The notes under the pieces: generated by a model
The model's input: only the letters and a program-made list of their open reading frames with translations
Told to the model about the DNA's origin: nothing
The model's database searches: none
From: a virus
Virus record (IMG/VR): IMGVR_UViG_3300022934_000235
Span: 1-21,521 of that record
Length of the DNA: 21,521 bases
Reading direction: 5' to 3' (one strand)
Shown: positions 1 through 20,670 of the stretch, piece by piece
Numbering within the stretch: the stretch's first letter is position 1
How the letters are laid out: each line of letters opens with the position of its first letter
Program-made: the position numbers and the translations under genes

Positions 1-159
1 GAAGACGTAAAGCAGCAACAGGCAAGAACGGAATACCTGGAACGTCTTTACCAAGCAGACCTGCGATATATGCGGGAACACCCCTTTCATGGACGCTTCT
101 GCGGTCTATACGAGCTGTATAAAAACCATGGAACGTATGGCCGAACACAGAATCCCTGA
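1..159 (+). CDS. C-terminal end of an unidentified protein (5' truncated)
   Basis: Frame 1 is open from the first base to a TGA at 157-159, giving the last 52 residues of a protein whose start is outside the window. The visible part is rich in Tyr, Arg, Gln and charged residues (for example RTEYLERLYQADLRYMREH) and ends in a Gly/Tyr-rich tail. I recognise no family. It overlaps the beginning of the next rightward gene, as is common in compact phage early regions. A chance open stretch of this length is possible, so confidence is moderate. Confidence 0.45.
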   Translation, partial: EDVKQQQARTEYLERLYQADLRYMREHPFHGRFCGLYELYKNHGTYGRTQNP

Positions 160-301
160 ACCCGTCATTACCAATACAGATGACGGCATGGTGCGTATAT
201 CAGTTGGCGATGAATTTGGCTGGGTAAGCTCACACCATCTAGTCCCACCAAAAGTCAATCAGCTAACGCAAACATGGCTAATGAAGCACAAGCCAAGCTG
301 A
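128..301 (+). CDS. small hypothetical phage protein
   Basis: A 57-residue reading from ATG 128; in-frame ATGs also exist at 89 (70 residues) and 137. I prefer 128 because it shortens the overlap with the upstream partial gene, but no Shine-Dalgarno sequence decides the start. The sequence PEPVITNTDDGMVRISVGDE followed by FGWVSSHHLVPP looks like a small beta-rich fold. No family recognised. Its 3' end overlaps the nuclease gene by 28 nt, suggesting co-transcription with it. Confidence 0.5.
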   Translation: MERMAEHRIPEPVITNTDDGMVRISVGDEFGWVSSHHLVPPKVNQLTQTWLMKHKPS

Positions 302-1080
302 GTAAGTTACGAAAAAGTGCCCTGGTTCGTGATGACTCTGGAACCGATTTCAACTGGCGCGTTTATCGGGACAACACTGGCGGCGTGTTTCATAGCGTCA
401 CCCACATACTGGGCGCTACGGCACCGGATCACCAAAAGCAAGCACTGGAACGTTGGCTGGCTCGTCCAGGTAGCGAACAAGATCGGGAAACCGCTGCAAC
501 ACGAGGCACCCTTGCCCACAACCACGCCGAATACATCCTCAAAACCGGCGCACAACTAGCCCGCAAAGCAGCCAACAAACGCAACGTCTGGAAAACCCAT
601 TCAGACGGCTTGGAACGTTGCCCTGGATCGATTACCGCTTGGGGTATTGAAAGAGCCATTCAAGGTGCTCCTAGAGTCCCCTGGAGCGCAGCAGGCTATG
701 CAAGAGGACTACGCGGCTGGATCGGTAAGAACGTAACCGCCATTCATGCCGTCGAATTTTCCATTCACCATTCAGCCGGTTTTGCTGGTACGTGCGATGC
801 CCTGCTGGACATTCAAGGCAAGGGACCAATGCTTATCGACTGGAAAACCAGTCAACGCGAAAGAAGCGAAGAGATGCTTACCAACTACATCGACCAATTA
901 GGCGCATACAGTTTGGGTCTCAAGAGTCTCACAGGCATAAAGGCGGCTGGAGCGTATGTGGTGGTGGCACGTAGAACTGGAGCCCCGCAGCTACGAGAAC
1001 TAAGTGAACTCGAATTGCGAGGCGCAGAATCTAGATTCCTGGAACGTTGTGAGGTGTACTTCGACGGCCTGGCTGCTTAA
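274..1080 (+). CDS. RecB/Cas4-like PD-(D/E)XK nuclease
   Basis: A 268-residue protein with the signature of the PD-(D/E)XK nuclease superfamily, RecB-like branch. Visible parts in order: helix motif RGTLAHNHAE with His82 and Glu86; GTCDA with the metal-binding Asp175; IDWKTS with Asp189 and Lys191; and a QLGAY motif at 208-212 typical of RecB-type domains. Such phage enzymes usually act as exonucleases in recombination or host DNA degradation, or in genome processing; the specific role is inference. The gene starts inside the end of the previous small gene and ends 2 bp from the convergent gene at 1083, with no visible terminator between them. Assignment to the fold is confident; the substrate is not known. 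Confidence 0.82.
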   Translation: MANEAQAKLSKLRKSALVRDDSGTDFNWRVYRDNTGGVFHSVTHILGATAPDHQKQALERWLARPGSEQDRETAATRGTLAHNHAEYILKTGAQLARKAANKRNVWKTHSDGLERCPGSITAWGIERAIQGAPRVPWSAAGYARGLRGWIGKNVTAIHAVEFSIHHSAGFAGTCDALLDIQGKGPMLIDWKTSQRERSEEMLTNYIDQLGAYSLGLKSLTGIKAAGAYVVVARRTGAPQLRELSELELRGAESRFLERCEVYFDGLAA

Positions 1081-1082
1081 CT

Positions 1083-1466
1083 TTATTTTTTCGGCAGTGG
1101 CCCAAAGCCTTCAAGGCGCTTTAAGGCGGCTGGATCGCCTTCTTTAGCCTTACCTAAAAAAGCCTTTCTCAAGTCCCAATACTGCTCTTTATTCAGCCAA
1201 ACAGTTACGCCATTTTCTGAGAAGTAGTAAGGGAATTCGCGGGAAGGCGGCTTTAGTTTGGAAAGCCGCAACCTAGGAATAAAGGAGGTGGTTCGTTTGT
1301 GTACTTCTGGGGCGTGCTTATTAAAAGCTTGGATTTTCTTTTTAATATGGAGTAATCGGTAATAACGGGGAGTTGTGTCCCAACCTAGTTCTTCAAGTAA
1401 ATCCAGCTCCCAGTTGATTGAGTCAATCAAGAGAGGGTAATCATCAACTTTGAGATCAAAAGACAT
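1083..1466 (-). CDS. hypothetical protein
   Basis: A 127-residue leftward protein, last gene of the first leftward block. The N-terminal half is acidic and helical (SFDLKVDDYPLLIDSINWEL); the middle is basic (HKRTTSFIPRLRLSKLKPPS); the C-terminal part YWDLRKAFLGKAKEGDPAAL is again helical. No membrane segment or signal peptide. I do not recognise the family. The 50 bp before its ATG contain repeated TCTCAG units (about 1499-1513 on the + strand), which could be a local control site. It converges on the nuclease gene. Confidence 0.65.
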   Translation of the reverse strand: MSFDLKVDDYPLLIDSINWELDLLEELGWDTTPRYYRLLHIKKKIQAFNKHAPEVHKRTTSFIPRLRLSKLKPPSREFPYYFSENGVTVWLNKEQYWDLRKAFLGKAKEGDPAALKRLEGFGPLPKK

Positions 1467-1515
1467 GGTTTTGGGTGGTTCGTGTGTTTAGTGTTGGGTC
1501 TCAGGAGTCTCAGCC

Positions 1516-1884
1516 TCAGACGTAACCGTTGTTGGCTGATCCCTGGATCGTTAGCGCATAGCCTTGCCATTTTTTAGCTTTGTCGATCGCACCGACAAGC
1601 TTTGTCATGGCTGGTACGTCACCATTAGCGGCTGCGATGTTGAACTGGTGCTGAAGCATCCCGAGAACGCCAATCAGGTCGGGCTCTGAGGTTTCCTCAG
1701 TGCTTGGTCCGTCATCGGATGCGTCGATGGTGGCTTGCACTTTGGCGATGTCTGAATAAGCAGTGGAACGACTCAGGCCAAAGCGGGCGCTGACCATGGT
1801 CGCCACTGTTGAGTGGCTAGCACCAGTCTCCAGCCATCCACGGATGACGGAGTGACGCTGCTCGATCTCCTGGGACGTTGCCAT
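1516..1884 (-). CDS. helix-turn-helix protein, possibly small-terminase-like or regulatory
   Basis: A 122-residue protein. Residues about 12-48 resemble a helix-turn-helix: a first helix around VIRGWLETGASHSTVATMV, then ARFGLSRSTAYSDIAKVQ as turn and recognition helix. This pattern resembles the N-terminal DNA-binding domain of small terminase subunits and of other phage DNA-binding proteins. The C-terminal half (LIGVLGMLQHQFNIAAANGD, then a Lys-rich helix) could be an oligomerisation part. The ATG overlaps the stop codon of the upstream gene (TAATG on the - strand), indicating translational coupling. Because a better terS candidate sits beside terL, I favour a regulatory or accessory DNA-binding role. 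Confidence 0.68.
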   Translation of the reverse strand: MATSQEIEQRHSVIRGWLETGASHSTVATMVSARFGLSRSTAYSDIAKVQATIDASDDGPSTEETSEPDLIGVLGMLQHQFNIAAANGDVPAMTKLVGAIDKAKKWQGYALTIQGSANNGYV

Positions 1885-2114
1885 TAGTTGGCTGCGGTGG
1901 ATTTGATGCCGCAGAGATCAACCACAAGTTGCTTGTAAATCTCGCGGGCGTTTTCGCCTAAGTCTTTGGGGTCTGCCAGTGCAGGACTGGGACGGAAGCG
2001 CATCCTTTCAAGTTGCGCAAATTTTGCGTAAATGCTGCTGCCCATGCCGCCGTGCCAAAGCATGGCGAACATGAAGTGAGCCTCGCAAATGTCGAAGCGG
2101 TCGAAGTGTGCCAT
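1884..2114 (-). CDS. conserved small phage protein (function unknown)
   Basis: A 76-residue protein, first gene of the left leftward block. It has the pattern FDICEAHFMFAMLWHGGMGS, then FRPSPALADPKDL and ENAREIYKQL. I associate this layout with a widespread small family in phages of many bacteria that has no assigned function; that is recall, not a search. It is coupled by a 1-base overlap to the HTH gene downstream. Its start faces the divergent control region at 2115-2256. No Shine-Dalgarno sequence is visible. Confidence 0.7.
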   Translation of the reverse strand: MAHFDRFDICEAHFMFAMLWHGGMGSSIYAKFAQLERMRFRPSPALADPKDLGENAREIYKQLVVDLCGIKSTAAN

Positions 2115-2165
2115 GAGGATGGTGGCTGACTCGTTTCTACCCTATCACAACAGAACAGGAAAAAC

Positions 2166-2198
2166 CGGAATTCTCGGACAAGTCGGAATTCTCGGACA
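2166..2198. repeat. two tandem 15-bp repeats, candidate operator
   Basis: CGGAATTCTCGGACA occurs at 2166-2180 and again, identically, at 2184-2198. The period is 18 bp, so both copies are offset by nearly two helical turns on almost the same DNA face. Each copy centres on the palindrome GAATTC. They lie directly upstream of the -35 hexamer of the rightward promoter and between two divergent genes, which suits a regulator controlling one or both directions. The regulator is not identified. Confidence 0.65.
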
Positions 2199-2202
2199 CC
2201 GC

Positions 2203-2231
2203 TTGACAACTGCCTGGAACGTGGGTCATAT
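2203..2231 (+). promoter_or_regulatory. sigma70-type promoter for the 2257 gene
   Basis: TTGACA (2203-2208) is followed after 17 bp by TCATAT (2226-2231). This is a consensus -35 with an acceptable -10. Transcription would start near 2238, giving a leader of about 20 nt before ATG 2257. The spacer contains one copy of the TGGAACG heptamer (2215-2221), and another copy follows the -10 (2235-2241). Confidence 0.6.
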
Positions 2232-2256
2232 TGGTGGAACGCCACACCTACAGGCT

Positions 2257-2742
2257 ATGACAACAGAAACACAGGCCAACCACGCCGAAGCCAACGCTAA
2301 CGGCCATGCTCAGACCATTGAAGCCCTCTATGAGCTGTCTTGCTGGGATTTTCGCACTGGTGAGCTTCCGCAGGCTTTGACTGGTGCGGCTGCCGATTTG
2401 CTCAGCGATATTGGCTGGGACGCTGAAACCGGCACGCCAGACAGCCTGCAGGAGGCAGTCACTCAATACGCTCAGGAGATGCCGCTTAGCGTAACGGTGC
2501 GTTCTGATTGGCACTTCCCCGGTGAATCTGACGAACCCGCAGAGTTTCAGATTCAGATGTCCTGGGGCGGCCCTTCCTGCCGCATCATTGGCGTGCTGGA
2601 TCGTGGGTCGGTTGCTTGGCAGTCAGGCTGTCGTCCAGTCATGCAACATCAGGACTGGTTCAAGCCGTGGACTGAAATAAGCTATGACATCAACACCGAT
2701 GCTTTGCTCTGGTTCTGTGAGCAGTTCTACTACGGGGAATAA
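2257..2742 (+). CDS. conserved acidic phage protein (function unknown)
   Basis: A 161-residue acidic protein, the only rightward gene between two leftward blocks. The frame stays open upstream to 2089, but that extension would run across the promoter and tandem repeat, so I choose ATG 2257. The N-terminus is Ala/Asn-rich and probably flexible. The C-terminal half contains VRSDWHFPGESDEPAEFQIQ, a GGPSCRIIG motif, then QDWFKPWTE and a final LLWFCEQFYYGE. I recall this C-terminal pattern from a widespread family in phages and mobile elements with no firm function. It has its own promoter and operator-like repeats, so it is probably expressed independently, perhaps early. A counter-defence or host-takeover role is only speculation. 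Confidence 0.78.
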   Translation: MTTETQANHAEANANGHAQTIEALYELSCWDFRTGELPQALTGAAADLLSDIGWDAETGTPDSLQEAVTQYAQEMPLSVTVRSDWHFPGESDEPAEFQIQMSWGGPSCRIIGVLDRGSVAWQSGCRPVMQHQDWFKPWTEISYDINTDALLWFCEQFYYGE

Positions 2743-2760
2743 AAAGCCCCCGTAGGGGCT
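2741..2760 (-). terminator. intrinsic terminator of the second leftward operon
   Basis: On the - strand AGCCCC-TACG-GGGGCT (2760 down to 2745) is followed by a run of five T (to 2741) and then ATT. The stem begins at the last base pair of the stop codon region of the 2760 gene and overlaps the end of the facing 2257-2742 gene. The loop TACG closed by C-G is a stable UNCG-type tetraloop. Confidence 0.82.
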
Positions 2761-2966
2761 CAGGCGTCTGGGTGGATCGTTAGCTTGAGTTCCGCCAGTT
2801 GTCTGCCGGTTGAGGCATAAGGGCGGATCCAGTCACCAGTCAGCCGCCAGCAGTGAAAATCTGCTGACCAGTAAAGGCAGTCAGGATCCTTACCCACTGC
2901 CCTTAGCTGCGCTGGCGTTACGGGTGGAACGTATGGGTTCCGGTAGTTGTGCTTGTACTCAGTCAT
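2760..2966 (-). CDS. small hypothetical protein, last gene of leftward operon
   Basis: A 68-residue reading from ATG at 2966. The frame is open further upstream to 3029, but that extension would be encoded across the terminator hairpin at 2981-3003, so the shorter form is preferred. The protein starts MTEYKHNYRNPYVPPVTPAQ and contains DPDCLYWSADFHCWRLTGDW, with many aromatics, one Cys pair and no obvious catalytic motif. It lies beyond an internal terminator, so it is made by read-through or from a promoter I could not identify. Family not recognised. Confidence 0.6.
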   Translation of the reverse strand: MTEYKHNYRNPYVPPVTPAQLRAVGKDPDCLYWSADFHCWRLTGDWIRPYASTGRQLAELKLTIHPDA

Positions 2967-2980
2967 TGATTTTGCAGGTG

Positions 2981-3003
2981 AAAAAGGGAGCCCCGAAGGG
3001 CTC
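2981..3003 (-). terminator. internal intrinsic terminator in leftward operon
   Basis: On the - strand GAGCCC-TTCG-GGGCTC (3003 down to 2988) is followed by CCTTTTT (to 2981). The C(UUCG)G tetraloop and T-run are classical. The stem overlaps the TGA stop codon (3002-3004) of the 3002-3217 gene, the same arrangement as the terminator at 2741-2760. Confidence 0.8.
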
Positions 3004-3217
3004 ATAAGTTGGCATAACGGGGATGACACGGCTCATCGGGATAGAGAAATTCCATTCCGATGATTTCTGCCTCCTTGACGCAGATCCCTAAGACAGCCTT
3101 GCGGCGTGCTAGGACTTCCCTGCGGCTGTCCTCGTGCCACAACGTCCTAAGAAGGTCGTCGCAACGTTCGAGGTCAGCAACGCAGACAGCGATTTTTTGC
3201 TGGGGCGTTAATGTCAT
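3002..3217 (-). CDS. small hypothetical protein
   Basis: A 71-residue protein beginning MTLTPQQKIAVCVADLERCD. The first 50 residues look like two amphipathic helices rich in Arg, Asp, Glu and Leu. The last 20 contain Pro, Tyr, Cys and His (FLYPDEPCHPRYANL). The start has the best ribosome binding site of this block: AGGAG about 6 nt upstream, inside the end of the preceding gene. The genes overlap by 4 bp (ATGA), so they are translationally coupled. Family not recognised. Confidence 0.7.
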   Translation of the reverse strand: MTLTPQQKIAVCVADLERCDDLLRTLWHEDSRREVLARRKAVLGICVKEAEIIGMEFLYPDEPCHPRYANL

Positions 3218-3447
3218 GCCAACTCCTGAATCATTTCATCCAGCTCGGGGTAATTAACAAAAACGTTGTTAAAGTACACGCCGTCAGGAGTTTGAGGAAG
3301 AATGATCCCGTCAGTGATATAAGTGAGAAACTCAGCGTAATCACTGCAACCGCATCCGATTGAATACAGGTTGAAATCATTCTGGATCCAGAGAGCAACA
3401 TTCCAGGTCTCGTAATTAGACCAGCCGTTGTAAGTTTCAGCAACCAT
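3214..3447 (-). CDS. NGW-NYETWNVALW family small protein
   Basis: A 77-residue protein whose N-terminal part has YNGWSNYETWNVALWIQNDF. I recall this signature from a common small phage/bacterial family without known function. The remainder is acidic and aromatic, with a GCGCSDYAEF stretch that supplies two Cys residues. The ATG lies after a stable intercistronic hairpin (3469-3491) and a pyrimidine-rich leader, without a Shine-Dalgarno sequence. It overlaps the next gene by 4 bp. Family membership is fairly clear from the motif; function is unknown. Confidence 0.75.
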   Translation of the reverse strand: MVAETYNGWSNYETWNVALWIQNDFNLYSIGCGCSDYAEFLTYITDGIILPQTPDGVYFNNVFVNYPELDEMIQELA

Positions 3448-3468
3448 GATTTAAAAGAAGAAAGTGTT

Positions 3469-3491
3469 AGCCAGGATGTGAAGTCCTGGCT
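3469..3491 (-). promoter_or_regulatory. intercistronic hairpin
   Basis: A perfect 8-bp inverted repeat, AGCCAGGA (3469-3476) and TCCTGGCT (3484-3491), has a 7-nt loop. It lies between the stop of the 3499-3702 gene and the start of the 3214-3447 gene. On the - strand it is followed by AACACTTTCTTCTTTT, which is pyrimidine-rich but not a clean T-run. It is therefore either a weak terminator/attenuator or an mRNA stabilising or processing element. Confidence 0.55.
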
Positions 3492-3498
3492 CGTTTGA

Positions 3499-3702
3499 TT
3501 AAGAGATGCGCGACGTTATCCATGTATGGATGTTGTCAGCAACTTCTTCACATTCAGCATCAGAGCGAAACTCTGATTCCATCCTGACGATGACGCAAAG
3601 GGACTCATACAGTTCCTCATCATCGAAAGTACCGGCGGATACCCGCTCCTGTACTTGAGGAAGTACGGAGCGGATAACTGCGGCTTGAGAGATGTCAGCC
3701 AT
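3499..3702 (-). CDS. small acidic hypothetical protein
   Basis: A 67-residue, strongly acidic protein (MADISQAAVIRSVLPQVQER, then a Glu/Asp-rich middle and NIHTWITSRIS at the end). It is predicted to be all helical. No catalytic motif seen. It follows the 3705-3872 gene by only 2 nt and precedes an intercistronic hairpin, so it belongs to the same leftward operon. The acidity would suit a nucleic-acid mimic or an inhibitor protein, but nothing in the sequence demonstrates that. Confidence 0.65.
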   Translation of the reverse strand: MADISQAAVIRSVLPQVQERVSAGTFDDEELYESLCVIVRMESEFRSDAECEEVADNIHTWITSRIS

Positions 3703-3704
3703 GT

Positions 3705-3872
3705 TCAGAGGAAACTAGGGAGTTCAGGAGCCAAGCCTTGAGCTTTGTAGCGGTGGAGCGGATCAACCCGTTGCATGATTGCCGCGAGTCGTTCCGCCTC
3801 ATGCTTAGCCAGTGGCCGCAGGGATCCCCTTACGGGGACCCAGCCACTAGTGATGCCCTGGTATTGGGTCAC
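3705..3872 (-). CDS. small basic hypothetical protein (GTG start)
   Basis: On the - strand a GTG at 3872 opens a 55-residue frame ending in TGA at 3705-3707. The product begins MTQYQGITSGWVPVRGSLRP and continues with a helical, charged middle (KHEAERLAAIMQ) and a Pro-rich end. It fills the 173-nt gap between the neighbouring leftward genes almost exactly: 8 nt from the upstream stop and 2 nt from the downstream start. That fit is the main argument that it is real. The DNA also contains a strong hairpin near the 5' end (GGTCCCC/GGGGATC, about 3815-3835). Family not recognised. Confidence 0.5.
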   Translation of the reverse strand: MTQYQGITSGWVPVRGSLRPLAKHEAERLAAIMQRVDPLHRYKAQGLAPELPSFL

Positions 3873-3880
3873 TATGTGTC

Positions 3881-4693: not shown

Positions 4694-5236
4694 ATGCAAC
4701 AAATTATGGCGGAAGACACCGCTAATAAATACGACAGCGGCTTTGAAGACGAAGCAGAAAAGCAGGATGAAATAAAAAGGCAGCGACCATTCGGCCCAAA
4801 AAGCACCAAAGAAGCCCAACAAGCCCGCATCCAACGCCTCTACAAACGCCAACTCGAAGGTTTACCCGTCCGCCAACTCGTACTAGAACACGCCGCCAAA
4901 GAACAAATCGGCATCGCCACTGCCTGGCGCGACTGGAAAGGCGTCTACGAACTCGTTGCCGAAGATTTCGAGCGCGAACGCACCAAAATGGCAGGCCGCA
5001 TCTTCATGCAACGCCAACGCCTTTTCAATGCCGCCATGAAACGCGGCCAAATGCAAACCGCCGCCAACGTCCTCGACTCCCTGGCACGTCAAGTCGGCTG
5101 CGATATGCCCGAACAGACCAGCTCCCTGCCCGAAATCCGCGTCACCGTCGAACCACCCAACGAAATTGCTGGATCGGACGCCGCCCAACTACCCCAAGCC
5201 GAAATTATCGACGTAGAAAATGAGCACAACGATTGA
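4694..5236 (+). CDS. terS: terminase small subunit
   Basis: A 180-residue protein directly upstream of, and overlapping by 17 bp, the large terminase gene. Residues about 5-40 are charged and probably disordered. Residues about 38-75 (RIQRLYKRQLEGLPVRQLVL, then EQIGIATAWRDWKGV) look like a helix-turn-helix DNA-binding domain. The centre (FERERTKMAGRIFMQRQRLF onward) is a long helical oligomerisation region. The tail is acidic, ending near the terL start. Such subunits form rings that recognise the packaging site and load the large subunit. ATG 4694 and ATG 4706 (MAEDTANKYD) are both possible starts; the inverted repeat at 4662-4690 sits immediately before. Identification rests mainly on position and the HTH pattern. 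Confidence 0.78.
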   Translation: MQQIMAEDTANKYDSGFEDEAEKQDEIKRQRPFGPKSTKEAQQARIQRLYKRQLEGLPVRQLVLEHAAKEQIGIATAWRDWKGVYELVAEDFERERTKMAGRIFMQRQRLFNAAMKRGQMQTAANVLDSLARQVGCDMPEQTSSLPEIRVTVEPPNEIAGSDAAQLPQAEIIDVENEHND

Positions 5237-6470
5237 CATCAGCCTCAAAAAGGCCCAATCCGAAGTTTTTTACAGCAAAAAACGCTTCCGCGTCCTCGTT
5301 GCAGGCCGCCGCTTCGGCAAAAGCTACCTGGCCTGCATCGAACTCTTTACCAAGGCCCTGGCACGTCCCGGCGAAACCTTCTTTTACTGCGCCCCCACCT
5401 ACCGCATGGCGAAAGACATCGCCTGGAAGGTGCTCAAAAAGATCGTCCCACCGCAATACATCCGCAGCAAAAACGAAACCGACCTCAAGCTCGAACTCAT
5501 CAACGAATCGACCATCGAACTCAAAGGCACGGAAAACGCCATGGCCCTCCGTGGCCGCAGCCTCTCTGGTGTAGTACTCGACGAGGCGGCTTTTATGGAC
5601 TCCGAGGTCTGGTTCGAAGTCATCCGTCCCGCTCTTGCCGACAAACAAGGCTGGGCACTCTTCATCAGCACACCGGATGGAACGGCAAGCTGGTTTTATG
5701 ACATGTGGTGTTATGTCCCAGAAGACAAAACCGGCGACTGGCAGCGATGGTGCTACACAACCATCCAAGGCGGCAACGTCCCACCCGAAGAAGTCGCCGC
5801 AGCCCGCGCTCAACTTGATTCGCGCACGTTCCGCCAGGAATTCGAAGCGTCGTTCGAGAACCTCAGCGGCCTAGTTGCCATAAGTTTTGCTGATGACAAC
5901 ATCTCCAAAGATGTAAAAGACTTACCAGTCCTTCCCCTACTGCTTGGCGTTGACTTTAACGTTGACCCCATGACCGGCATCTGCGCCGTCAAAAAAGGCG
6001 ACGTGCTCTGGATTTTCGACGAAATCATCATGACCGGCGGCGCAACCACCTGGGATTTCTGCGAAGAGGTCCAAAACCGCTACGGCGTGGATCGTCGCAT
6101 CATCAGCTGCCCCGACCCCACTGGCGGAGCCCGCAAAACCCAAGGCGTCGGCACCACCGACCACAGCATCCTCCGCAAATCCGGCTTCACCGTCTCCACC
6201 CCCCGCGCCCCCTGGAAAATCCGCGACAAAATCACCTGCGTCAACACCGCCCTTCTCGATGCGACTGGAACGCGCCGCATGTTCATCCACCCCCGCTGTA
6301 AAGAACTAATCAAGGCACTCCGCACCCTGACCTACGCTCCTGGAACGGGTCTCCCCAACAAAAATTTGGGTGTTGACCACGCATTTGACGCCCTCGGCTA
6401 TTTATGCCTGCAAGTATTCAACCTGGCGAAACCGGAAACCATGGGAAGCACCAACTATCGAGTCTGGTAA
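5220..6470 (+). CDS. terL: terminase large subunit (ATPase and nuclease)
   Basis: A 416-residue DNA-packaging motor protein. The ATPase part shows Walker A GRRFGKS (29-35), Walker B VVLDEA (118-123) with the catalytic Glu122, and a coupling motif STPDG (150-154). The RNase H-like nuclease part shows GVDFN with Asp245, CPDP with Asp299, and VDHAFDALGY with Asp386 and Asp390, the expected acidic cluster. The length is near the short end for this family but all motifs are present, so it looks intact. It pumps DNA into the prohead at the portal and cuts the concatemer. It overlaps terS by 17 bp; the codon choice is C-rich compared with the tape measure gene. Four TGGANCG motifs fall in it. Confidence 0.96.
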   Translation: MSTTIDISLKKAQSEVFYSKKRFRVLVAGRRFGKSYLACIELFTKALARPGETFFYCAPTYRMAKDIAWKVLKKIVPPQYIRSKNETDLKLELINESTIELKGTENAMALRGRSLSGVVLDEAAFMDSEVWFEVIRPALADKQGWALFISTPDGTASWFYDMWCYVPEDKTGDWQRWCYTTIQGGNVPPEEVAAARAQLDSRTFRQEFEASFENLSGLVAISFADDNISKDVKDLPVLPLLLGVDFNVDPMTGICAVKKGDVLWIFDEIIMTGGATTWDFCEEVQNRYGVDRRIISCPDPTGGARKTQGVGTTDHSILRKSGFTVSTPRAPWKIRDKITCVNTALLDATGTRRMFIHPRCKELIKALRTLTYAPGTGLPNKNLGVDHAFDALGYLCLQVFNLAKPETMGSTNYRVW

Positions 6471-6661
6471 TCACCCCACAACTCGAAGAAGCCCTCGGCC
6501 TGCTCTACCGAGGCCAAACAAACGTCGCCAAAAAAGCCAAAGAACTCGACATCCCCCTAGCCCTATTGAAAACCTTTCTCAATAAGCACATCACCCAAAT
6601 CCCCACATGCGACGATGCCTGGAACGCCGACATCGAGCTAGGTTGGCCTTATATCACCTGA
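6404..6661 (+). CDS. small RGQTN-motif phage protein (function unknown)
   Basis: An 85-residue frame from ATG 6404, overlapping the end of terL by 67 nt. The conserved-looking part begins only around residue 22 (VITPQLEEALGLLYRGQTNV), so the true start may be a non-ATG codon near 6464, just before the terL stop. Residues about 26-60 look like a short HTH (YRGQTNVAKKAKELDIPLAL), followed by a hydrophilic end DAWNADIELGWPYIT. I recall similar small proteins beside terminase genes in cyanophages, without known function. A DNA-binding or terminase accessory role is plausible from position only. Confidence 0.68.
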   Translation: MPASIQPGETGNHGKHQLSSLVITPQLEEALGLLYRGQTNVAKKAKELDIPLALLKTFLNKHITQIPTCDDAWNADIELGWPYIT

Positions 6662-6762: not shown

Positions 6763-6933
6763 ATGCCTAAAAAACGCGGCCTATACGCAAACATTCAAGC
6801 AAAGCGCAAACGCATTGCTGCAGGATCTGGCGAAAAGATGCGAAAGCCTGGAACGAAAGGCGCACCAACCGCCGCCAACTTCAAAGCAGCAGCCAAAACC
6901 GCCAAAAAGCGCAAACCCAAGCGTAAAAAGTAA
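6763..6933 (+). CDS. conserved GLYANI-type small basic protein
   Basis: A 56-residue protein, MPKKRGLYANIQAKRKRIAA followed by GSGEKMRKPGTKGAPTA and a Lys/Arg/Ala tail. I recognise the pattern GL(Y/W)ANI-AKR-RI-AGSGE-MR-PG-KGAPTA as a widespread small phage family found near terminase and portal genes; its role is unknown. It is strongly basic and probably binds nucleic acid or acidic scaffold. It is too short for many ORF callers. One TGGAACG copy (6849-6855) falls inside, encoding a Pro-Gly-Thr. Confidence 0.82.
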   Translation: MPKKRGLYANIQAKRKRIAAGSGEKMRKPGTKGAPTAANFKAAAKTAKKRKPKRKK

Positions 6934-7303: not shown

Positions 7304-7732
7304 ATGAAATCTCTTAGCCCTAACAAACTCGCTAGTGCCAGCGGCGGCGGCGCAGCCCAGGCTGAAGTTTCTGGAACGACAGTTTCTATTGCAGATGCAG
7401 CCTCAGCTGATCTAACCATCACCAACACCGGCAAAGCAGGGCAACTACTTTCTATCGAGACCGACGCTGCAGCTTGGGTAACGGTTTACGCAAGTCAAGC
7501 TACCCGCACGGCAGACGCTTCTAGGACAGAAACTACCGACCCGACTGCAGGTTCTGGAGTTCTTGCCGAAGTAATCACTACAGGCGCTCAAACAGTGCTT
7601 TTAACGCCTGGCGCAACATATTTTAACGCTGAATCCACCCCTACCGGCAACCTTTACTTAAAGGTCGTCAACAAATCTGGTGCATCAGCTGCAATTACAG
7701 CAACGTTATCTGTTGTTCCAGTACAGGTATAA
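7304..7732 (+). CDS. small beta-rich structural protein
   Basis: A 142-residue Ala/Thr/Ser-rich protein starting MKSLSPNKLASASGGGAAQA. It contains strand-like segments (VSIADAASADLTITNTGKAG, WVTVYASQATRTADASRTET, LYLKVVNKSGASAAITATLS). The start is supported by a good ribosome binding site, GAGGT about 7 nt upstream. It follows the previous beta-rich gene within 8 bp, so the two are probably co-translated and may form one structure. I suspect a virion component such as a head decoration or fibre-base protein; no family recognised. Confidence 0.68.
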   Translation: MKSLSPNKLASASGGGAAQAEVSGTTVSIADAASADLTITNTGKAGQLLSIETDAAAWVTVYASQATRTADASRTETTDPTAGSGVLAEVITTGAQTVLLTPGATYFNAESTPTGNLYLKVVNKSGASAAITATLSVVPVQV

Positions 7733-7794: not shown

Positions 7795-8664
7795 ATGGCC
7801 TACACCAAAGTCAGCTCGATCGTAACCAACAACAGCCAGACAGATACTGTTAACGGGAACGCTGTTGGTTGGAAGTATTTTTATGAAACGTTTCTTCCCA
7901 CCGTTGGCTGGACTGTAACTCTTTGTGCAGACAACAGTGCAAGTCCGCCAAGTGCTTACAACCACAACCACTGGTATTTCCTCAAAAAAACACTAACATT
8001 TACTGACGGCACGACAGATACTATTGCGCTTGTATATAAATTCGAGCCAGGTGGACAAGATCTGCACGTTTACTCTTGGGACGGTGTATTAGCCACAAAC
8101 GATAGTGGCGATGCTCAATACGGTCGAGGCAATACTGATCATCTTAATGACACAACCAACTATATTGTGCAAACTTTCAATCCCAGCACATACGATATTT
8201 GGAAAGATGATGATAATGATTCTTGGTTTTGGGTAAAAAATGGACGTTTTATCGGTTGCTGGTTTCCTAATGGCGGTTGGGTTCGCCAAGACTTTGACTA
8301 CACACCAGGCACTGATTATTTAACAAAGCACGCTGTTCCGTTACCAGGTTTCGACGAAATCGGAAGGATGGCACGGCACTATAACGCTAACGGTCAAATC
8401 GAATCGCATTACCCTTATGACCTACCTAATGAGAAAAAATTCTCTAATTATACTTATTTAAGTGTAAACAATTACGCTATATGGCGTGGAACCAGCAGTA
8501 ACATTATTATAAGACCAAGTAGGGTAGGATTTAACCCAAACAGTTCAATTTACACAAAAACATATAAATCAGGCTCCAACTACTATTTTGGTATGACTGA
8601 CAGTGTAGGTCAACTAGGCCTTCACTTCAATGTAGGCACTACCGATCCGGGGTATCGTAGATGA
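7795..8664 (+). CDS. fibre-like virion protein, paralogue A
   Basis: A 289-residue protein rich in Asn, Asp, Gly, Ser, Thr, Tyr and Trp, the composition of fibre or receptor-binding proteins. Marker segments: ETFLPTVGWTVTL (about 31-43), YFLKKTLTFTDGTTDTI (about 61-77), YDIWKDDDNDSWFWVKNGRF and GCWFPNGGWVRQDF (about 133-167), and an end motif FNVGTTDPGY. These recur in the next gene, so the two are a tandem duplication. Position between terminase and portal is unusual for a tail fibre and suggests a head-attached fibre or host-contact protein. Family not recognised; function is inference. The DNA is more AT-rich than the terminase genes. Confidence 0.75.
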   Translation: MAYTKVSSIVTNNSQTDTVNGNAVGWKYFYETFLPTVGWTVTLCADNSASPPSAYNHNHWYFLKKTLTFTDGTTDTIALVYKFEPGGQDLHVYSWDGVLATNDSGDAQYGRGNTDHLNDTTNYIVQTFNPSTYDIWKDDDNDSWFWVKNGRFIGCWFPNGGWVRQDFDYTPGTDYLTKHAVPLPGFDEIGRMARHYNANGQIESHYPYDLPNEKKFSNYTYLSVNNYAIWRGTSSNIIIRPSRVGFNPNSSIYTKTYKSGSNYYFGMTDSVGQLGLHFNVGTTDPGYRR

Positions 8665-13437: not shown

Positions 13438-13722
13438 TCAAACGAGGCCCAATCGTTTCTTTTCTTGCCAATCAAACACCTCTTCGCTACGCACGGTCAT
13501 TTTGTAAGACCGCAGAACCACCTGATTCGTAACGACGTAGCTGATTTTCAGCTCGCTGGCAATCTCTGGAACGGTTTTACCGCGCTTCCGCAGCTTCTGA
13601 ATTTCTTTAACAACATCAGCAAACTTCCGTGGCTTTTCCGCCTTGGGAGCCTCTGTTTTTCTTACGCTAGTACCAGAGGACTCACTTTTACGGACCGGCA
13701 TGGATTTAGTGCGGCTTTTCAT
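13438..13722 (-). CDS. leftward helix-turn-helix protein within the structural module
   Basis: A 94-residue basic protein encoded on the opposite strand to all surrounding virion genes. The first 30 residues are Lys/Arg/Ser/Thr-rich and probably disordered. Residues about 36-70 (VVKEIQKLRKRGKTVPEIAS, then ELKISYVVTNQVVLRSY) form a clear helix-turn-helix pattern like those of small phage regulators. ATG 13722 and ATG 13701 are possible starts. The gene ends just beyond the capsid terminator and its start faces the 13748 gene. A regulatory role is inferred; it could also be a homing or accessory insertion (moron-like). No terminator follows it on its own strand. Confidence 0.72.
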   Translation of the reverse strand: MKSRTKSMPVRKSESSGTSVRKTEAPKAEKPRKFADVVKEIQKLRKRGKTVPEIASELKISYVVTNQVVLRSYKMTVRSEEVFDWQEKKRLGLV

Positions 13723-13747: not shown

Positions 13748-13882
13748 ATGGACATTCCAGCCAGCACAGTCAACGAAACCCAAGCGCAAATTGAACTAAA
13801 CGGTGGAACGGTTTACCACGCTTGCGTCCTACCTAAACCGGCACGACGTAGTAGAGCTAAACTCAAAAGAAAGTGGTATTAA
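13748..13882 (+). CDS. small basic protein before the connector gene
   Basis: A 44-residue protein from ATG 13748, starting MDIPASTVNETQAQIELNGG and ending in a strongly basic tail (ARRSRAKLKRKWY). The frame is open upstream to 13643, but that part lies inside the antisense HTH gene, so the short form is preferred. It lies 3 bp before the connector gene. No family recognised. Its size and position are consistent with a small head-completion accessory protein. Confidence 0.55.
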   Translation: MDIPASTVNETQAQIELNGGTVYHACVLPKPARRSRAKLKRKWY

Positions 13883-13885: not shown

Positions 13886-14413
13886 GTGGCCGCAACAATC
13901 GACGCCACTCTTCAGGGAGCATCAGCCAATAGCTATGTAACGTTGGCCGAAGCCGACGCATACTTCCTGACGACCCCACACGATGAGCATTGGAGTGGGT
14001 CGGATGATCACAAAAACCGTGGGATCATTACCGCAACACGGTATCTAGACAACTTTGACTATTACGGAACGCGCTGCAGCACGACCCAAGCATTGAAGTG
14101 GCCGCGCAAAGACTACAAAGTTGACGGCGTAGAGATCGACTGCACCTACATCCCGCAGCAAGTCAAAAACGCCACATTTGAACTTGCCCATGTGCTCCTT
14201 TACAACGGTGAAGCCCTTGTAGGCACCACTGGAACGCAGGGCACTTACGAGGAAGTAGAGCTTGGCGACCTCAAGGTCAAGTACAAGGACAGCAGCCAAA
14301 CCCCCGGCGTCATCAACAACATCCTCGACATTTACCCTTGGCTTGAATCATTCCTCGGCCCCTACATGAAATCCGGCGCAACCAACTACGCCGTAACCCT
14401 GGAACGAGGCTGA
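13886..14413 (+). CDS. head-tail connector, DnaT-like/gp6-like adaptor
   Basis: A 175-residue protein starting at GTG 13886. It has the signature of the so-called DnaT-like phage family: NSYVTLAEADAYFLTT near residue 16, GIITATRYLDNFDYYGTRCS around 48-67, ALKWPRKDYKVDG, and IPQQVKNATFELAHVLL around 90-106. This family sits in the position of head-tail adaptors that bind the portal ring from below and complete the head. It is followed 1 bp later by the head-closure gene. The role as adaptor is based on family position; the old DnaT name does not imply replication. Confidence 0.78.
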   Translation: MAATIDATLQGASANSYVTLAEADAYFLTTPHDEHWSGSDDHKNRGIITATRYLDNFDYYGTRCSTTQALKWPRKDYKVDGVEIDCTYIPQQVKNATFELAHVLLYNGEALVGTTGTQGTYEEVELGDLKVKYKDSSQTPGVINNILDIYPWLESFLGPYMKSGATNYAVTLERG

Positions 14414-14414: not shown

Positions 14415-14792
14415 ATGGCGCTAATTGACGACGTATTCGGCAGCATTCCAACCACCATCCTTAGAGATTGGGGCCGGGACATCACCTATGTCAAAACCGG
14501 ACTGCCATCGGTTTACGACCCAAGCACTGGAACGGTGGTGAGTGTTGAGACCACGGTGACGGTGAAGGCAGTCATCCTCAACGTCAACCCCAGTGAATAT
14601 GACGGTTTGTATCAAACCACTGATTTAAAGGTGATTTTCGGCGCATCAGAGCTGGGTGATTACTACCCGATGCAAGCTGATCACATCCGTTACACGGAAG
14701 CAGGTGAAACCCGCGAAGCCAAACTGATCGACATCAACACAAAACGCGGCGACGGCCCAATCCTGCACACCATCATTGCGAGGCCGCAGTAA
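14415..14792 (+). CDS. head closure/neck protein
   Basis: A 125-residue beta-rich protein starting MALIDDVFGSIPTTILRDWG. Strand segments such as TVTVKAVILNVNPSEYDG, DLKVIFGASELG and HIRYTEAGETREAKLIDINT resemble small SPP1 gp16-like head-closure proteins. The position after the adaptor and before a gp10-like neck protein agrees. It would plug the connector once DNA is packaged. It overlaps the next gene by one base (TAATG), indicating translational coupling. Confidence 0.65.
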   Translation: MALIDDVFGSIPTTILRDWGRDITYVKTGLPSVYDPSTGTVVSVETTVTVKAVILNVNPSEYDGLYQTTDLKVIFGASELGDYYPMQADHIRYTEAGETREAKLIDINTKRGDGPILHTIIARPQ

Positions 14793-15841: not shown

Positions 15842-16612
15842 ATGGCCGCCACCGTTCTGTCCGGCACCTCGGGTGCCCTGTATTACAAACCTGCTGGCAC
15901 CCTGGGCCAGTGTGACTCCACTGGTATTGACACCACTGGAGACACCATCACCGTCGCGCCTTTCCTGAACTTTAAGGTTGGCGACCCTGTTGTTTTCAGT
16001 GTTGTTGACACCACTGACGGCAGCACCGGAACCGGCACCCTGCCCTCTGGCATTGTGGCTGGCACGGTTTACTACGTCATCTCTTACGTCAACACCACGG
16101 GTGTGATGCAGGTGTCCGCCACTTCCGGTGGTTCGACCATCACCATCACCGACACCGGCACTGTTGCGGCCCCCAACAAGTTCCAAGTCGAGTATTCAGC
16201 TTTTTCGGCTGTGGGCCAAGTGCGTGAGTGGAGCTTTGAGATCACTCGTGACGAAATCGACGTTACGACCATTGGCGCTGCTCCCGGTCAGTACGTTCCC
16301 TTCCGTACCTTCATCGCAGGTTTTGCGGATGGTTCGGGCAGCGCAACGGTGTACTTCACCGACACCGACGACACCCTGGGCAACCGGATGGTGGAAGACG
16401 TGGTGCTGCGTATTCAGACCGGCGCAAAGTTCAAGCTCTACACCGACCAAGTGTTTAGCGGTGGCACGTTGAACGACACCTTGAGCCGTTCCATCGAGTT
16501 TGAAGCCAACCTGACTTCCGCAAACCTGGCGATCAACCCTGATGACGCTCAGGCTGTGGACATCAACTTCCGCCCAACCACCACCCCGACTTTCGACTTC
16601 GCTAAGTCCTGA
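15842..16612 (+). CDS. major tail tube protein with an inserted domain
   Basis: A 256-residue protein between the tail terminator and the chaperones, followed by a strong terminator: the position and expression signs of the tail tube subunit. The tube fold appears in residues 1-20 (MAATVLSGTSGALYYKPAGT) and from about 124 on (VGQVREWSFEITRDEIDVTT, then FADGSGSATVYFTDTDDTLG). Between them, about residues 28-115, lies a separate beta-rich unit (PFLNFKVGDPVVFSVVDTTD, GTVYYVISYVNTTGVMQVSA) resembling Ig-like surface domains inserted in phage tube proteins. Codons are biased to C, as in the capsid gene. Upstream, 15802-15814 forms a small CGGGC/GCCCG hairpin without a T-run. Confidence 0.82.
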   Translation: MAATVLSGTSGALYYKPAGTLGQCDSTGIDTTGDTITVAPFLNFKVGDPVVFSVVDTTDGSTGTGTLPSGIVAGTVYYVISYVNTTGVMQVSATSGGSTITITDTGTVAAPNKFQVEYSAFSAVGQVREWSFEITRDEIDVTTIGAAPGQYVPFRTFIAGFADGSGSATVYFTDTDDTLGNRMVEDVVLRIQTGAKFKLYTDQVFSGGTLNDTLSRSIEFEANLTSANLAINPDDAQAVDINFRPTTTPTFDFAKS

Positions 16613-16639
16613 TAACTTAGAATCCGAATAAGGGTGCTA

Positions 16640-16708: not shown

Positions 16709-17056
16709 ATGCCCGCCAGCAATCTGCGTGCAATCGACAAGCTTCGTAAGGCAGCCAACCTCGAACCAACCAAGAAAGAAGTTGTACTTTCGGATGGAAC
16801 GATTTTCACGTTCTATTCCACGTCACTGGTAATGGCCGAACGTGAGCGTGCTACACGGAATGCAAAATCAGACGACGCAAACGCTTTTGCTCTGCAGCTT
16901 CTGATTGCCAAGGCAATGGATGAAAACGGGCAGAAGCTGTTTAATGCTGGCGAGATTGACGTTTTGAAGAACGAGGTCAAAGACAAAGATTTGCAGTCGT
17001 TGATGCTGGCGGTTCTTGCTGACGATGACTCTGCTGAAATGGACCCAAACTCCTAA
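16709..17056 (+). CDS. tail assembly chaperone (gpG-like, unshifted product)
   Basis: A 115-residue protein between the tail tube and tape measure genes, the position of lambda gpG. Features: MPASNLRAIDKLRKAANLEP, a strand pair DGTIFTFYSTSLVMAERERA, helices around LLIAKAMDENGQKLFNAGEI, and an acidic C-terminus ending DDDSAEMDPNS. It binds the tape measure protein and recruits tube subunits. Its last codons contain the slippery heptamer CCCAAAC (17044-17050), from which a fraction of ribosomes should continue into the T frame. Family identification rests on gene order and the frameshift arrangement. Confidence 0.8.
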   Translation: MPASNLRAIDKLRKAANLEPTKKEVVLSDGTIFTFYSTSLVMAERERATRNAKSDDANAFALQLLIAKAMDENGQKLFNAGEIDVLKNEVKDKDLQSLMLAVLADDDSAEMDPNS

Positions 17057-17244
17057 GCGCAGAACTTCGCAAAGACAACTGGCTCATGCTGCAGTTCGGC
17101 GTTGCCAAGGAACTGGGCATGACCTTGTCGCAAGTTCGCGCCACCATGACCCCAGAGGAGCTGCTTGGCTGGAGCGCCTACTTCAAAGTGCTCAACGACG
17201 ACCAGCAAAAAGAAATGGATAAAGCCAAGCGCCGCCGCCGCTAA
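16709..17244 (+). CDS. tail assembly chaperone GT fusion by -1 frameshift
   Basis: Predicted join of 16709-17050 and 17050-17244, 178 residues. In the -1 frame, open after the TGA at 17035-17037, translation continues LLSAELRKDNWLMLQFGVAK, then ELGMTLSQVRATMTPEELLG and WSAYFKVLNDDQQKEMDKAK with four final Arg. The EELLGW-AYF motif and basic end are typical of the T domain of siphovirus GT proteins. The T part has no plausible independent start that would include its first residues, and its frame differs by exactly -1, as in lambda. The long form binds tail tube subunits while the G part coats the tape measure. Confidence 0.82.
17044..17050 (+). promoter_or_regulatory. -1 programmed ribosomal frameshift site CCCAAAC
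   Basis: The heptamer reads C CCA AAC in the G frame and fits X XXY YYZ exactly. It lies one sense codon before the G stop codon (TAA 17054-17056) and inside the short window (17038-17053) where the shift must happen. No strong pseudoknot is obvious just downstream; only weak short stems are seen. Confidence 0.85.
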
Positions 17245-17271
17245 ACTTTTAAGAGTACAAGTCAAAGTGCT

Positions 17272-20200
17272 GTGGCTGACTATCAGGCAAAAATCAATTT
17301 GCTTGTTAGCGGCCAACAGCAGCTAAAGGCTTTAACGAACCAGCTTAAAGAAGCTTCTGAGCAAGCTGAGGCTCTAAACCAAAAAACTGAAAATATCAAG
17401 GCCGCTGGAAGGCGATCCCGCACTATTTTAAGTGTTACAGGGAGAGACCAACCAAGAGGCCCCAAAGGCCAGTTTGCTAAAGATCCAGACAGGCAGTTAC
17501 GCTTAAGCGCACTAAGGCAAGAGCGAGAAAACTTTAAAGAATTTAGGGCTTCCAGAAGAACACTCCAGTTAAAGAAGCTTGCTGTAACTGAAACAGAGAA
17601 TCAAGTACGCGCACAGAAAAAAGTAAATAGGGAAAATGTAAAACAACTAGAGACCCAAGTTCAAATTGACAAAACAGTTGAACTGTTCAACACACGACTG
17701 GCTAAGTTTCAACGTGGCCGTCCTTTAGAAACAAAGACAAACGTACAGGAGGTGCAACGCATTCGAGATGCTGGTGAGCAATTACAGCAAGCGTTTGCGG
17801 CAGCTAAAAAAGGCGGGCAAGAAAACTTGCGCTTGCTGAAAACATTAGCTGACGCTCTAGGCAAGTTAGTTGAAAAACAAAATGAATTAAACAGAGCATC
17901 TAAACTAAGCACTCAAGGCTTTGAGAGAGGCCGTGCTTTACAGGAAAGAGTAGACAGCCTTGCACAATCAGGTCTGGTAGGTGCTCCTAGGGTTAAAGCC
18001 GCACGCCGTATTGCTACTGCGGTTATTGATGCTGGGAACGTAGGAGACGCAATCAAATACGCTAAAGCAGTAGGTAAAGCAGAAGCCCTTATCAGAAGAA
18101 CAGAAAAAGAAGTACAAAAAATTGAAAAAGGTTTAAATTCAGTAACGTCAACTCAAAGAACTTTAAACAACCTAAGCCAGCAAGAGCTAGTAGACAAGAA
18201 GGCAGTGGGACGTATTCAAGCCAAGCTGGACAAAGCTAGGCAAGAAGCCTTAAAAGGAAATATAAAGGCAGCTAAAAAACTTACGCAAGAGGTTAAAGAC
18301 GAGCTTCAAGCACAGAGAAACATAACTAGAGAACTGAAAAAACAGAAAAAAGATAGAGATAAGGCAAGCAGACAAAAAGCTGCTGGTCGTGGAAGGTTTG
18401 TTGGCAACCTTGCCTCATCAGTTGGTTTTCCACTTTTATTTGGCGGTGGCGCAGGCTCTGTTGTTGGTGGTGCGATAGGCACCATCGCAGGTTCTTTACT
18501 TGGACCGGGGGGAGCTTTTGGCGGCGCTATTTTAGGAAGTTCTATCGGTCAACAGTTTGACACGTTGGCTGAATCAACTTTAAACCTTGCTAGAGCATTT
18601 CAAAATACAACTGACGGCCTTGAGGATATAGTCAGGTCTTTAGGCACACAAACACCGGAAGGATTCAGAGGCCGAGCAAGTTTCTTAGCATCCCAAGGTT
18701 TCGGAGCCCAAGCAGGTCTTGCTGCATCTCAAGAATTTGAAACTATCTATGGCTCAGAAGCGGCAAGAAAGATTAGAGAGCTAGCAGACACGACCAGAGA
18801 ATGGGACAGACTTATTGCTGAGCTAGGCACTGAACTACAACTTTTCTTATCTGGTCCGTTAAAAGCAACGCTAGAAGCAATCAAAAGAGTCACAGGTCGA
18901 GGTGAGCCGGACAAACAAGGCTCAGTAGCCTCTAGAAACCGTTTTCAAACAGAAGCTGACGCCCTTTTACCTCAAATAGAAGCATTACGCGCTATAGACC
19001 AGAAGAGTATTGGAGAAAAACAGCAATTAGCTGCTCTGGAGGCAAAACGCAACAATTTACTAGCGGTTGCAGTACAGTACAACAGAGAAATCGAAAAATC
19101 AAAGAAAAACCAAGCTCAGAGCGGTCAAGACATAGTAAATCTTGAACAATTAACAAATCAGATTTTACGTGATCGTAAAGCTGTAGATGACGCAGCGACT
19201 GATGCCGTTCGACAACAGCTGACAGCAAGAAGAGATAACCTTGCACTACTGCAGAGTGAAGCTAATATCCTAAAACTTACGCAGAATAGAGATAGAATTA
19301 AAGCCGAACTAGCTGTAGAAAAAGAACAGAACGAAAACAGTCAAAGGGCTATACAACTTGAAGATGAGTTAAACCGTGCTAACGCCGCTTTAACACAAGC
19401 CAAACTAAGCCGAAACAACGCCTTGGTGCGTGCTCAACGTGCAATTAGCCGTGAAGAGTTTTCCAATCTAGCGGCTGCAGAGAGAGCACGCATACAGATT
19501 AACGCTACTTTGCAGGAAGGTTTGGGTATCCAAGATACAGGAGCTGAATACTACGAGCGAACCGTTGCAAGCCTTAAAACTCAATTAAAAGCAAATATAG
19601 ACCTTCTTGAAGCTCGTAAACAACAAGAATTAGTAGGTAAAAATGAACTAGAAGTAATAAACGCTATTGTTACAAAATATGACCAACTTATTACGCTAGA
19701 GCAAACTCGCACAGCTCTAAAATTAGAGCAAAAGAAACAAACCGAACTTGCTCGTTTAGATTCCGAGCAGCAGTTTAAAAACGAACTTGCTTTGCAAAAG
19801 CTACAAAGCAAAAATCAAGCTGAAGCATTTATTCGGCAAACCAGCCCAGAGACTATCGGTAAATTCCAATTCAAAGGTTTCGGGTTCTTTGACCAGAGTG
19901 TTGCTCTAGAAGACGATCTATTGAAAAGTAGAACTGCCCAAATAGCGGAATACACTACAGAGTTAAACCAGCTAAACCTTCGTATTCAAGAATTAAGTCT
20001 TGCAGGAGCAGATCCAAAAGGGCGTTTAGGTGATTTGATAAAAGAACGGGATGCTCTTCAGCAAACCAAAGAACTTTACGAACAGTTGCAACCAGCCCAA
20101 GACGCTGCTGCAGTAGCCCAGCAGCGTTACAACGAAGCGTTGGCAGTAACCACACCTGTTGCTGAATCCCTAGTCAACGAGCTACGTGAGGTTGTTGCTG

Positions 20201-20670
20201 GAACGAAGAGTGCTCAAGAGGCATTTGCTGATTTCTTGAGAGTTATCGCAGAGCAATTTTTCACTCTTGCTGCAAGAATGCTTGCACAGTATGCGGCTCT
20301 TGCTCTTGCGCGAAATCTTGCGTTTGGCGGTACATCCGGTGGCGGTAGTGTTATTCCACAGGTGCTTACTGCTGGTCTTGACTTTAGTGGTGCATTTGCT
20401 GATGGCGGTCGGCCTGCAGTCGGCAAAGCCGCGCTGGTTGGTGAACGCGGACCAGAGCTGTTTGTCCCCAACAGGTCAGGCACCATCATCCCCAACGATC
20501 AGTTGGGTGGATCGAGCAACACAGTTACAGTTAATGTGGACGCGAAAGGTACAGAGGTGTCGGGCAACAGCGACCAATCAAGGCAGCTTGGTGCTGCTAT
20601 CTCCCGCGCAGTCCAAGCTGAGCTGGTGAAACAGCAACGTCCTGGCGGTGTGCTGCACTCTTCTCGCTGA
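17272..20670 (+). CDS. tail tape measure protein
   Basis: An 1132-residue protein starting at GTG 17272, by far the longest gene. Residues about 1-370 and 560-1000 are mostly long charged helices and coiled coil. Residues about 373-430 are Gly-rich and hydrophobic (VGFPLLFGGGAGSVVGGAIG, then TIAGSLLGPGGAFGGAIL), probably the membrane-active part used in DNA delivery. The C-terminus has the characteristic AFADGGRPAVGKAALVGERG and PELFVPNRSGTIIPND motif of tape measure proteins. It sets tail length; by the usual 0.15 nm per residue rule the tail would be about 170 nm. The DNA is clearly more A-rich, with AGA/TTA codons, than the neighbouring capsid and tube genes. No peptidase domain recognised. 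Confidence 0.95.
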   Translation: MADYQAKINLLVSGQQQLKALTNQLKEASEQAEALNQKTENIKAAGRRSRTILSVTGRDQPRGPKGQFAKDPDRQLRLSALRQERENFKEFRASRRTLQLKKLAVTETENQVRAQKKVNRENVKQLETQVQIDKTVELFNTRLAKFQRGRPLETKTNVQEVQRIRDAGEQLQQAFAAAKKGGQENLRLLKTLADALGKLVEKQNELNRASKLSTQGFERGRALQERVDSLAQSGLVGAPRVKAARRIATAVIDAGNVGDAIKYAKAVGKAEALIRRTEKEVQKIEKGLNSVTSTQRTLNNLSQQELVDKKAVGRIQAKLDKARQEALKGNIKAAKKLTQEVKDELQAQRNITRELKKQKKDRDKASRQKAAGRGRFVGNLASSVGFPLLFGGGAGSVVGGAIGTIAGSLLGPGGAFGGAILGSSIGQQFDTLAESTLNLARAFQNTTDGLEDIVRSLGTQTPEGFRGRASFLASQGFGAQAGLAASQEFETIYGSEAARKIRELADTTREWDRLIAELGTELQLFLSGPLKATLEAIKRVTGRGEPDKQGSVASRNRFQTEADALLPQIEALRAIDQKSIGEKQQLAALEAKRNNLLAVAVQYNREIEKSKKNQAQSGQDIVNLEQLTNQILRDRKAVDDAATDAVRQQLTARRDNLALLQSEANILKLTQNRDRIKAELAVEKEQNENSQRAIQLEDELNRANAALTQAKLSRNNALVRAQRAISREEFSNLAAAERARIQINATLQEGLGIQDTGAEYYERTVASLKTQLKANIDLLEARKQQELVGKNELEVINAIVTKYDQLITLEQTRTALKLEQKKQTELARLDSEQQFKNELALQKLQSKNQAEAFIRQTSPETIGKFQFKGFGFFDQSVALEDDLLKSRTAQIAEYTTELNQLNLRIQELSLAGADPKGRLGDLIKERDALQQTKELYEQLQPAQDAAAVAQQRYNEALAVTTPVAESLVNELREVVAGTKSAQEAFADFLRVIAEQFFTLAARMLAQYAALALARNLAFGGTSGGGSVIPQVLTAGLDFSGAFADGGRPAVGKAALVGERGPELFVPNRSGTIIPNDQLGGSSNTVTVNVDAKGTEVSGNSDQSRQLGAAISRAVQAELVKQQRPGGVLHSSR

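Follow-up and report, generated by a model that had tools for sequence, protein, structure and literature searches.

The window analysed here, a 21.5 kb virus record (IMG/VR IMGVR_UViG_3300022934_000235, positions 1 to 21,521), carries a RecB-family exonuclease gene, terminase genes and a tape-measure gene (Table 1), together with many copies of the heptamer TGGAACG, nearly all on one strand. Its terminase, portal and major capsid proteins (MCPs) match those of cultured cyanosiphoviruses, with 42% (terminase) and 40% (capsid) to S-2L and of 36% (portal) to KBS-S-2A and S-H1. IMG/VR holds hundreds of closer relatives, and capsid relatives are found in two picocyanobacterial assemblies. The host is therefore very likely a cyanobacterium. 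In a full-length relative, genes for a sigma factor, PolA and a primase-helicase (Prim-Pol, PriCT-2, AAA_25) make up the leftward part, and those for a single-stranded DNA-binding (SSB)-like protein, the PD-(D/E)XK exonuclease, small proteins and terminase the rightward part. Genes were called with a home-made gene finder, and full records were read in 20-kb pieces. An AlphaFold model of the window's exonuclease (predicted local distance difference test, pLDDT, 89) is closest to human mitochondrial MGME1, with a template modelling (TM) score of about 0.6 by query length; AdnA and RecE come next. MGME1 is a nuclease working on single-stranded ends and flaps, and the modelled likeness would fit a recombination role or a role in flap or primer processing alike.

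TGGAACG occurs 22 times on the plus strand and once on the minus strand of the window, and TGGATCG 11 times and once, exactly as counted in a preliminary description made from the sequence. Moreover, all 14 copies of CTGGAACG lie on the plus strand. Markov models predict 1.5 (order 1), 2.5 (order 3) or 5.3 (order 4) plus-strand copies of TGGAACG, and about 1 on the minus strand (1.0 at order 3). Relative to these predictions the plus strand has a 14-fold (order 1) or 9-fold (order 3) excess, less than the about 17-fold first reported; it persists under the third-order model. With a z score of 11.3, TGGAACG ranks top among all 7-mers of the window. Of the variants that differ in the last base, TGGAACC is present in 3 copies, and TGGAACA and TGGAACT are absent. 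The degenerate form TGGNRCG is found 64 times on the plus strand and 14 times on the minus strand, versus 13 and 12 expected, with 16 plus and no minus copies in the first 2 kb. Among the forms of the degenerate word C-TGG-N-[A/G/T]-CG-T, TGGAACG ranks first; the preliminary description caught just a glimpse of this wider family, and neither the sharp density peak nor the link to the replication/recombination module, both described below, was visible to it.

The same word marks related phages. Over 159 related loci, TGGAACG is found 689 times on the plus strand and 138 times on the minus strand (154 and 84 expected), and heads a family that includes TGGAGCG, TGGGACG, TGGCACG, TGGTGCG and others. 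The consensus given above was the best fit to the closest group (group A), for which 314 kb were used. There, the flanking C and the flanking T are each preferred about 7.5-fold, and any single substitution at TGG..CG brings the count to about expectation or below. In a second clade, the last G of the word is relaxed. In 24 phages (the window and 23 relatives), the strand that encodes terminase has a 2-9 fold excess of the word, whatever the gene direction. These 23 relatives span 37-59% G+C content (GC), and those of low GC show 6-7 fold enrichment on the plus strand. The strand bias is genome-wide in related full-length records. Neither of the two outcomes that the preliminary description had named as refuting, loss of the excess under a Markov model or an unbiased motif in relatives, was thus obtained. 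Counts across relatives share ancestry and are non-independent.

Polarity does not follow transcription. In 15 phages (616 kb), plus-strand TGGAACG occurs at 0.57/kb in rightward genes, 0.52/kb in leftward genes and 0.79/kb outside genes, versus 0.11, 0.15 and 0.20/kb, respectively, for the minus strand. The window likewise has copies in leftward genes and in non-coding DNA; of the three leftward open reading frames (ORFs) named earlier, one was called by the gene finder and the other two are plausible. Hence, strand polarity belongs to the genome, independent of transcription direction. Synonymous-codon shuffling within genes gave 369 plus-strand copies of the word in rightward genes, where 922 are observed (z 40), and 64 in leftward genes, where 286 are observed (z 34). 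Minus-strand copies number 314 versus 191 in rightward genes and 142 versus 87 in leftward genes, so this strand is also mildly enriched overall. Together with the antisense and non-coding sites, these data bear out the earlier view that neither codon choice nor gene direction is the cause. Between relatives, 56.6% of sites are conserved; permuted words reach 33%, and minus-strand copies 42%. We conclude that the motif is almost certainly a functional, selected and phage-borne directional signal. It looks like a stop or start sign, with a direction, to which an enzyme of viral DNA processing responds.

Table 1. Motif sites and genes referred to in the text (window coordinates).
Feature	Coordinates	Strand	Remark
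Exonuclease gene, PD-(D/E)XK, RecB family	274..1080	+	PF12705, PHROG 298; centre of motif peak in relatives
Terminase small subunit, probable	4694..5236	+	By position alone, without family match
Terminase large subunit	5220..6470	+	Its strand sets the plus direction of the motif
Part of peak zone of C-TGG-N-D-CG-T	1..3500	+	Spans about -0.3 to +3.2 kb relative to the start of the exonuclease gene
TGGAACG	38..44	+	CTGGAACGT context
TGGAACG	129..135	+	
TGGAACG	446..452	+	Within exonuclease gene
TGGAACG	611..617	+	Within exonuclease gene
TGGAACG	1040..1046	+	Within exonuclease gene
TGGAACG	1764..1770	+	Antisense in leftward ORF 1516-1884 (called by gene finder)
TGGAACG	2215..2221	+	Outside called genes
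TGGAACG	2235..2241	+	Outside called genes
TGGAACG	2925..2931	+	Antisense in leftward ORF 2760-3029 (plausible, uncalled)
TGGAACG	5678..5684	+	Terminase large subunit gene
TGGAACG	6266..6272	+	Terminase large subunit gene
TGGAACG	6341..6347	+	Terminase large subunit gene
TGGAACG	6620..6626	+	
TGGAACG	6849..6855	+	
TGGAACG	7372..7378	+	
TGGAACG	13567..13573	+	Antisense in leftward ORF 13438-13722 (plausible, uncalled)
TGGAACG	13804..13810	+	Outside called genes
TGGAACG	14230..14236	+	
TGGAACG	14400..14406	+	
TGGAACG	14528..14534	+	
TGGAACG, sole opposite-strand copy	16487..16493	-	CGTTCCA on the plus strand
TGGAACG	16795..16801	+	
TGGAACG	20199..20205	+	Tape-measure gene

The density of the word peaks at a fixed place. 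Wherever a full relative has the exonuclease gene, top or near-top density is reached at or just past that gene, and the peak falls between the replication genes and terminase. At 250 bp resolution, plus-strand density is 11-13/kb inside the exonuclease gene of higher-GC relatives, and up to 10/kb in relatives of 36% GC. A zone of strict polarity extends from about -3.25 to +3.25 kb relative to the exonuclease start, and the first 3 kb of the window correspond to its right half. In higher-GC loci, minus-strand copies drop to 0.29-0.64 of expectation inside this zone and are 2.6-fold enriched to the left of it. Loci L580-L600 (36-39% GC) show a local opposite-strand excess over and beyond the terminase gene, between +5 and +8 kb relative to where the exonuclease gene starts, which does not extend to the whole genome. 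A convergent flip at terminase, seen in fragments of low-GC relatives, is absent over their whole genomes.

Strictness of the motif tracks the clade of the exonuclease, primase and SSB, not that of the terminase and capsid: the trees of all three proteins contain the same relaxed clade. In record G324, exonuclease and primase occur without a terminase or capsid match, and the motif is still present. A search for loci with only one of exonuclease and primase, which could have separated the two, found none. Three records (G013, G321 and G322) have the motif and the primase/exonuclease module without a match to the group's PolA; PolA is therefore unlikely to be the reader.

Of the polar words to which the preliminary description compared TGGAACG, Chi sites are the best match. 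We tentatively favor reading the word as a Chi-like signal that acts on host RecBCD or on the phage's own RecB-family nuclease, a proposal that we hold to be quite possible rather than probable. RecBCD reads Chi on the strand ending 3' at its entry, so the plus orientation would be active for an enzyme that enters on the side of terminase and heads leftward. Such a helicase-nuclease would enter a double-strand end on that side, left by concatemer cutting for packaging or by a broken fork, and travel leftward, meeting sites on the strand whose 3' end lies at the entry point. Each encounter might switch the enzyme from degradation to recombination; unpackaged DNA would thereby be spared, and concatemers and the repair of forks favored. 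Host RecBCD is one candidate for this enzyme, or the phage exonuclease, whose gene lies at the peak centre, could take part. RecC (PF04257) is present in 61 of 61 picocyanobacterial genomes of the order. Four features expected of Chi are seen: over-representation in phage, coding-independent polarity, concentration between replication and packaging genes, and RecC in the inferred host group.

Known systems offer partial parallels. Bobay and colleagues found that lambdoid phages without RecBCD inhibitors over-represent Chi, which is massed between the replication genes and the terminase/packaging site (PMC3784561). E. coli Chi, GCTGGTGG, resembles the cyanophage word in phage over-representation, in its concentration between replication genes and terminase, and in the CTGG start; the match with the lambdoid phages covers position and abundance. 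The cyanophage word differs in its 3' half (NDCGT), is far denser and has a strong one-strand bias. Its responding nuclease is putative, and it is unenriched in host chromosomes, whereas E. coli Chi is 2.3-fold over-represented in its host (PMC3784561). Known RecBCD Chi sites start with GCTGG, as do GCTGGTGG and GCTGGCGC of P. syringae; the latter acts on entry from the 3' end only, and some validated Chi words lack skew (PMC5959072). The P. syringae site shares the CTGG core, and CTGGCGC fits the degenerate word, but the cyanophages prefer A or G forms over CGC and show no preference for the 5' G.

Several observations weigh against a Chi-like role. The word is unenriched in five picocyanobacterial genomes, with observed/expected ratios of about 1.0-1.2: RCC307 (1.2 Mb) has 1229 copies on leading and 1053 on lagging strands, versus 1174 and 1071 expected, and the other four are at about 1.0. 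Because over-representation in the host chromosome was looked for and not found, we do not file the word as Chi. Nor is it enriched in eight other picocyanophages, and phages of the same kind of host, such as S-H1 (on WH7803), S-CBS1, 3 and 4, Syn5 and P60, do without it. The 5' G of GCTGG is not preferred, although CTGG is. Density declines toward terminase with no rise to the presumed packaging end, and contig ends do not cluster, giving no fixed terminus as a cos or pac marker.

The eight other picocyanophages (L508-L513, L190 and L702) have TGGNDCG at 0.84 of expectation, the lowest of 20 permuted cores, which is only suggestive of mild avoidance. In KBS-S-2A (L189), TGGNRCG is enriched about twofold on both strands (57 and 35 versus 25 and 19), with no peak at its exonuclease gene. 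S-2L shows weak enrichment.

The carriage pattern, with strictness following the module clade and hosts at expectation, indicates that the word belongs to the DNA metabolism of this phage group. We see it as close to evenly balanced whether the reader is a phage-encoded enzyme, either the RecB-family exonuclease or the primase-helicase. The word would then be a private, phage-owned Chi or a nine-base code for lagging-strand priming, spread over hundreds of synonymous positions.

A priming role for the primase-helicase is on balance doubtful, though it is the strongest competitor of the Chi-like signal. Here, the enzyme would recognise the word on one template strand; replication would start at an origin close to the replication genes and proceed for the most part rightward, with sites on the lagging-strand template and densest just downstream of that origin. 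All motif-bearing full-length relatives that carry the region have the divergent PriCT-2 primase-helicase. Strictness tracks the replication module and not terminase or MCP, yet this linkage does not separate priming from a Chi-like role because exonuclease, primase and SSB travel together. Primases only 36-47% identical accompany the same motif, which tells against recognition by this enzyme. At -3.25 kb the zone of strict polarity has a sharp left border, across which minus-strand copies go from 2.6-fold enriched to depleted, and this border is origin-like; but left of it plus copies are as frequent as minus copies, so there is no clean flip. Inspection by eye of the DNA between the primase and SSB genes showed neither iterons nor other marks of an origin. 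Archaeo-eukaryotic primase (AEP) enzymes with a helix-bundle domain do read template motifs, and the primase-polymerase of phage NrS-1, which combines Prim-Pol, helix-bundle domain and helicase, uses an 8-nt site, TTTGGTTA (GTG) (PMC8718748, PMC7102993). However, the recognition sites known for primases either are shorter or occur only a few times in a genome: the 8-mer is present twice in NrS-1, compared with hundreds of sites in the cyanophages, and the NrS-1 helicase is of another class.

The divergent gap between primase-helicase and SSB genes (L181:1070-1202 and about 20 other relatives) is 130-270 bp long. It contains a hairpin rich in G+C with a T-run behind it, present even at 36% GC. 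Apparent divergent promoter-like elements also occur there.

Less likely still is another phage DNA-binding activity not tied to RecBCD, such as strand-specific nicking, an asymmetric methylation mark or an exonuclease pause site. The word is asymmetric and sharply specific, as the single substitutions in group A indicate, and it peaks on the gene for an exonuclease whose model resembles an enzyme of ends and flaps. But at least 2 sites/kb far exceeds the nick densities generally known, and the group yielded no shared methyltransferase or nicking enzyme. Phage tf is reported to have localized single-strand interruptions (PMC3517423).

It is very unlikely that the phage borrowed a host architecture word, that is, a segregation signal akin to FtsK-orienting polar sequences (KOPS) or a DNA uptake sequence. 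Like KOPS and architecture-imparting sequences (AIMS), the word is short, polar, over-represented and gene-independent. Unlike them, it is neither enriched nor polar in the host, and its direction stays the same along most of the phage genome. RCC307 has no leading-strand bias beyond base composition and no orientation flip at ori and ter, and none of the five picocyanobacterial genomes has the strong enrichment of an uptake sequence. The KOPS-like and uptake readings in the preliminary description are therefore unsupported, and a host KOPS, a Chi defined by abundance and an uptake word are ruled out in these five hosts. With the eight other picocyanophages unenriched as well, the word is not a host architecture word.

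The idea that the excess merely follows from codon usage, amino-acid content, GC skew or the avoidance of type III restriction deserves almost no credence: CTG-GAA-CG does encode Leu-Glu-Arg and one sense phase is commonest, but the excess outlasts codon shuffling and is equally strong in antisense and non-coding DNA, which excludes a codon or amino-acid origin, and type III avoidance alone would deplete one orientation without the strong plus-strand enrichment found here.

The literature searched contained no report of a Chi or Chi-like signal in cyanobacteria or cyanophages. If host RecBCD reads the word, picocyanobacteria would have their first candidate Chi, and recombination in the main marine photosynthesisers would become easier to study. 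If a phage enzyme reads it, a private polarity code would be laid on the whole genome. Under either reading, the sites would be a directly testable marker of the place and direction of DNA processing in uncultured cyanophages.

A scan of the collection for three close TGGAACG copies was dropped, as its hits were mostly genes with tandem repeats. Another word with strand bias, CCATTCAT, occurs 171 times on one strand and 9 times on the other over all loci and is enriched in higher-GC relatives (e.g. L035, L038, L059 and L145); its bias perhaps stems from a conserved peptide. Finally, two neighbouring rightward ORFs of the window, at 7795-8664 and 8721-9593, look like tandem paralogues (289 and 290 aa, beginning MAYTKVSSIVTNNSQ and MAYTKVSTITTTGDQ).

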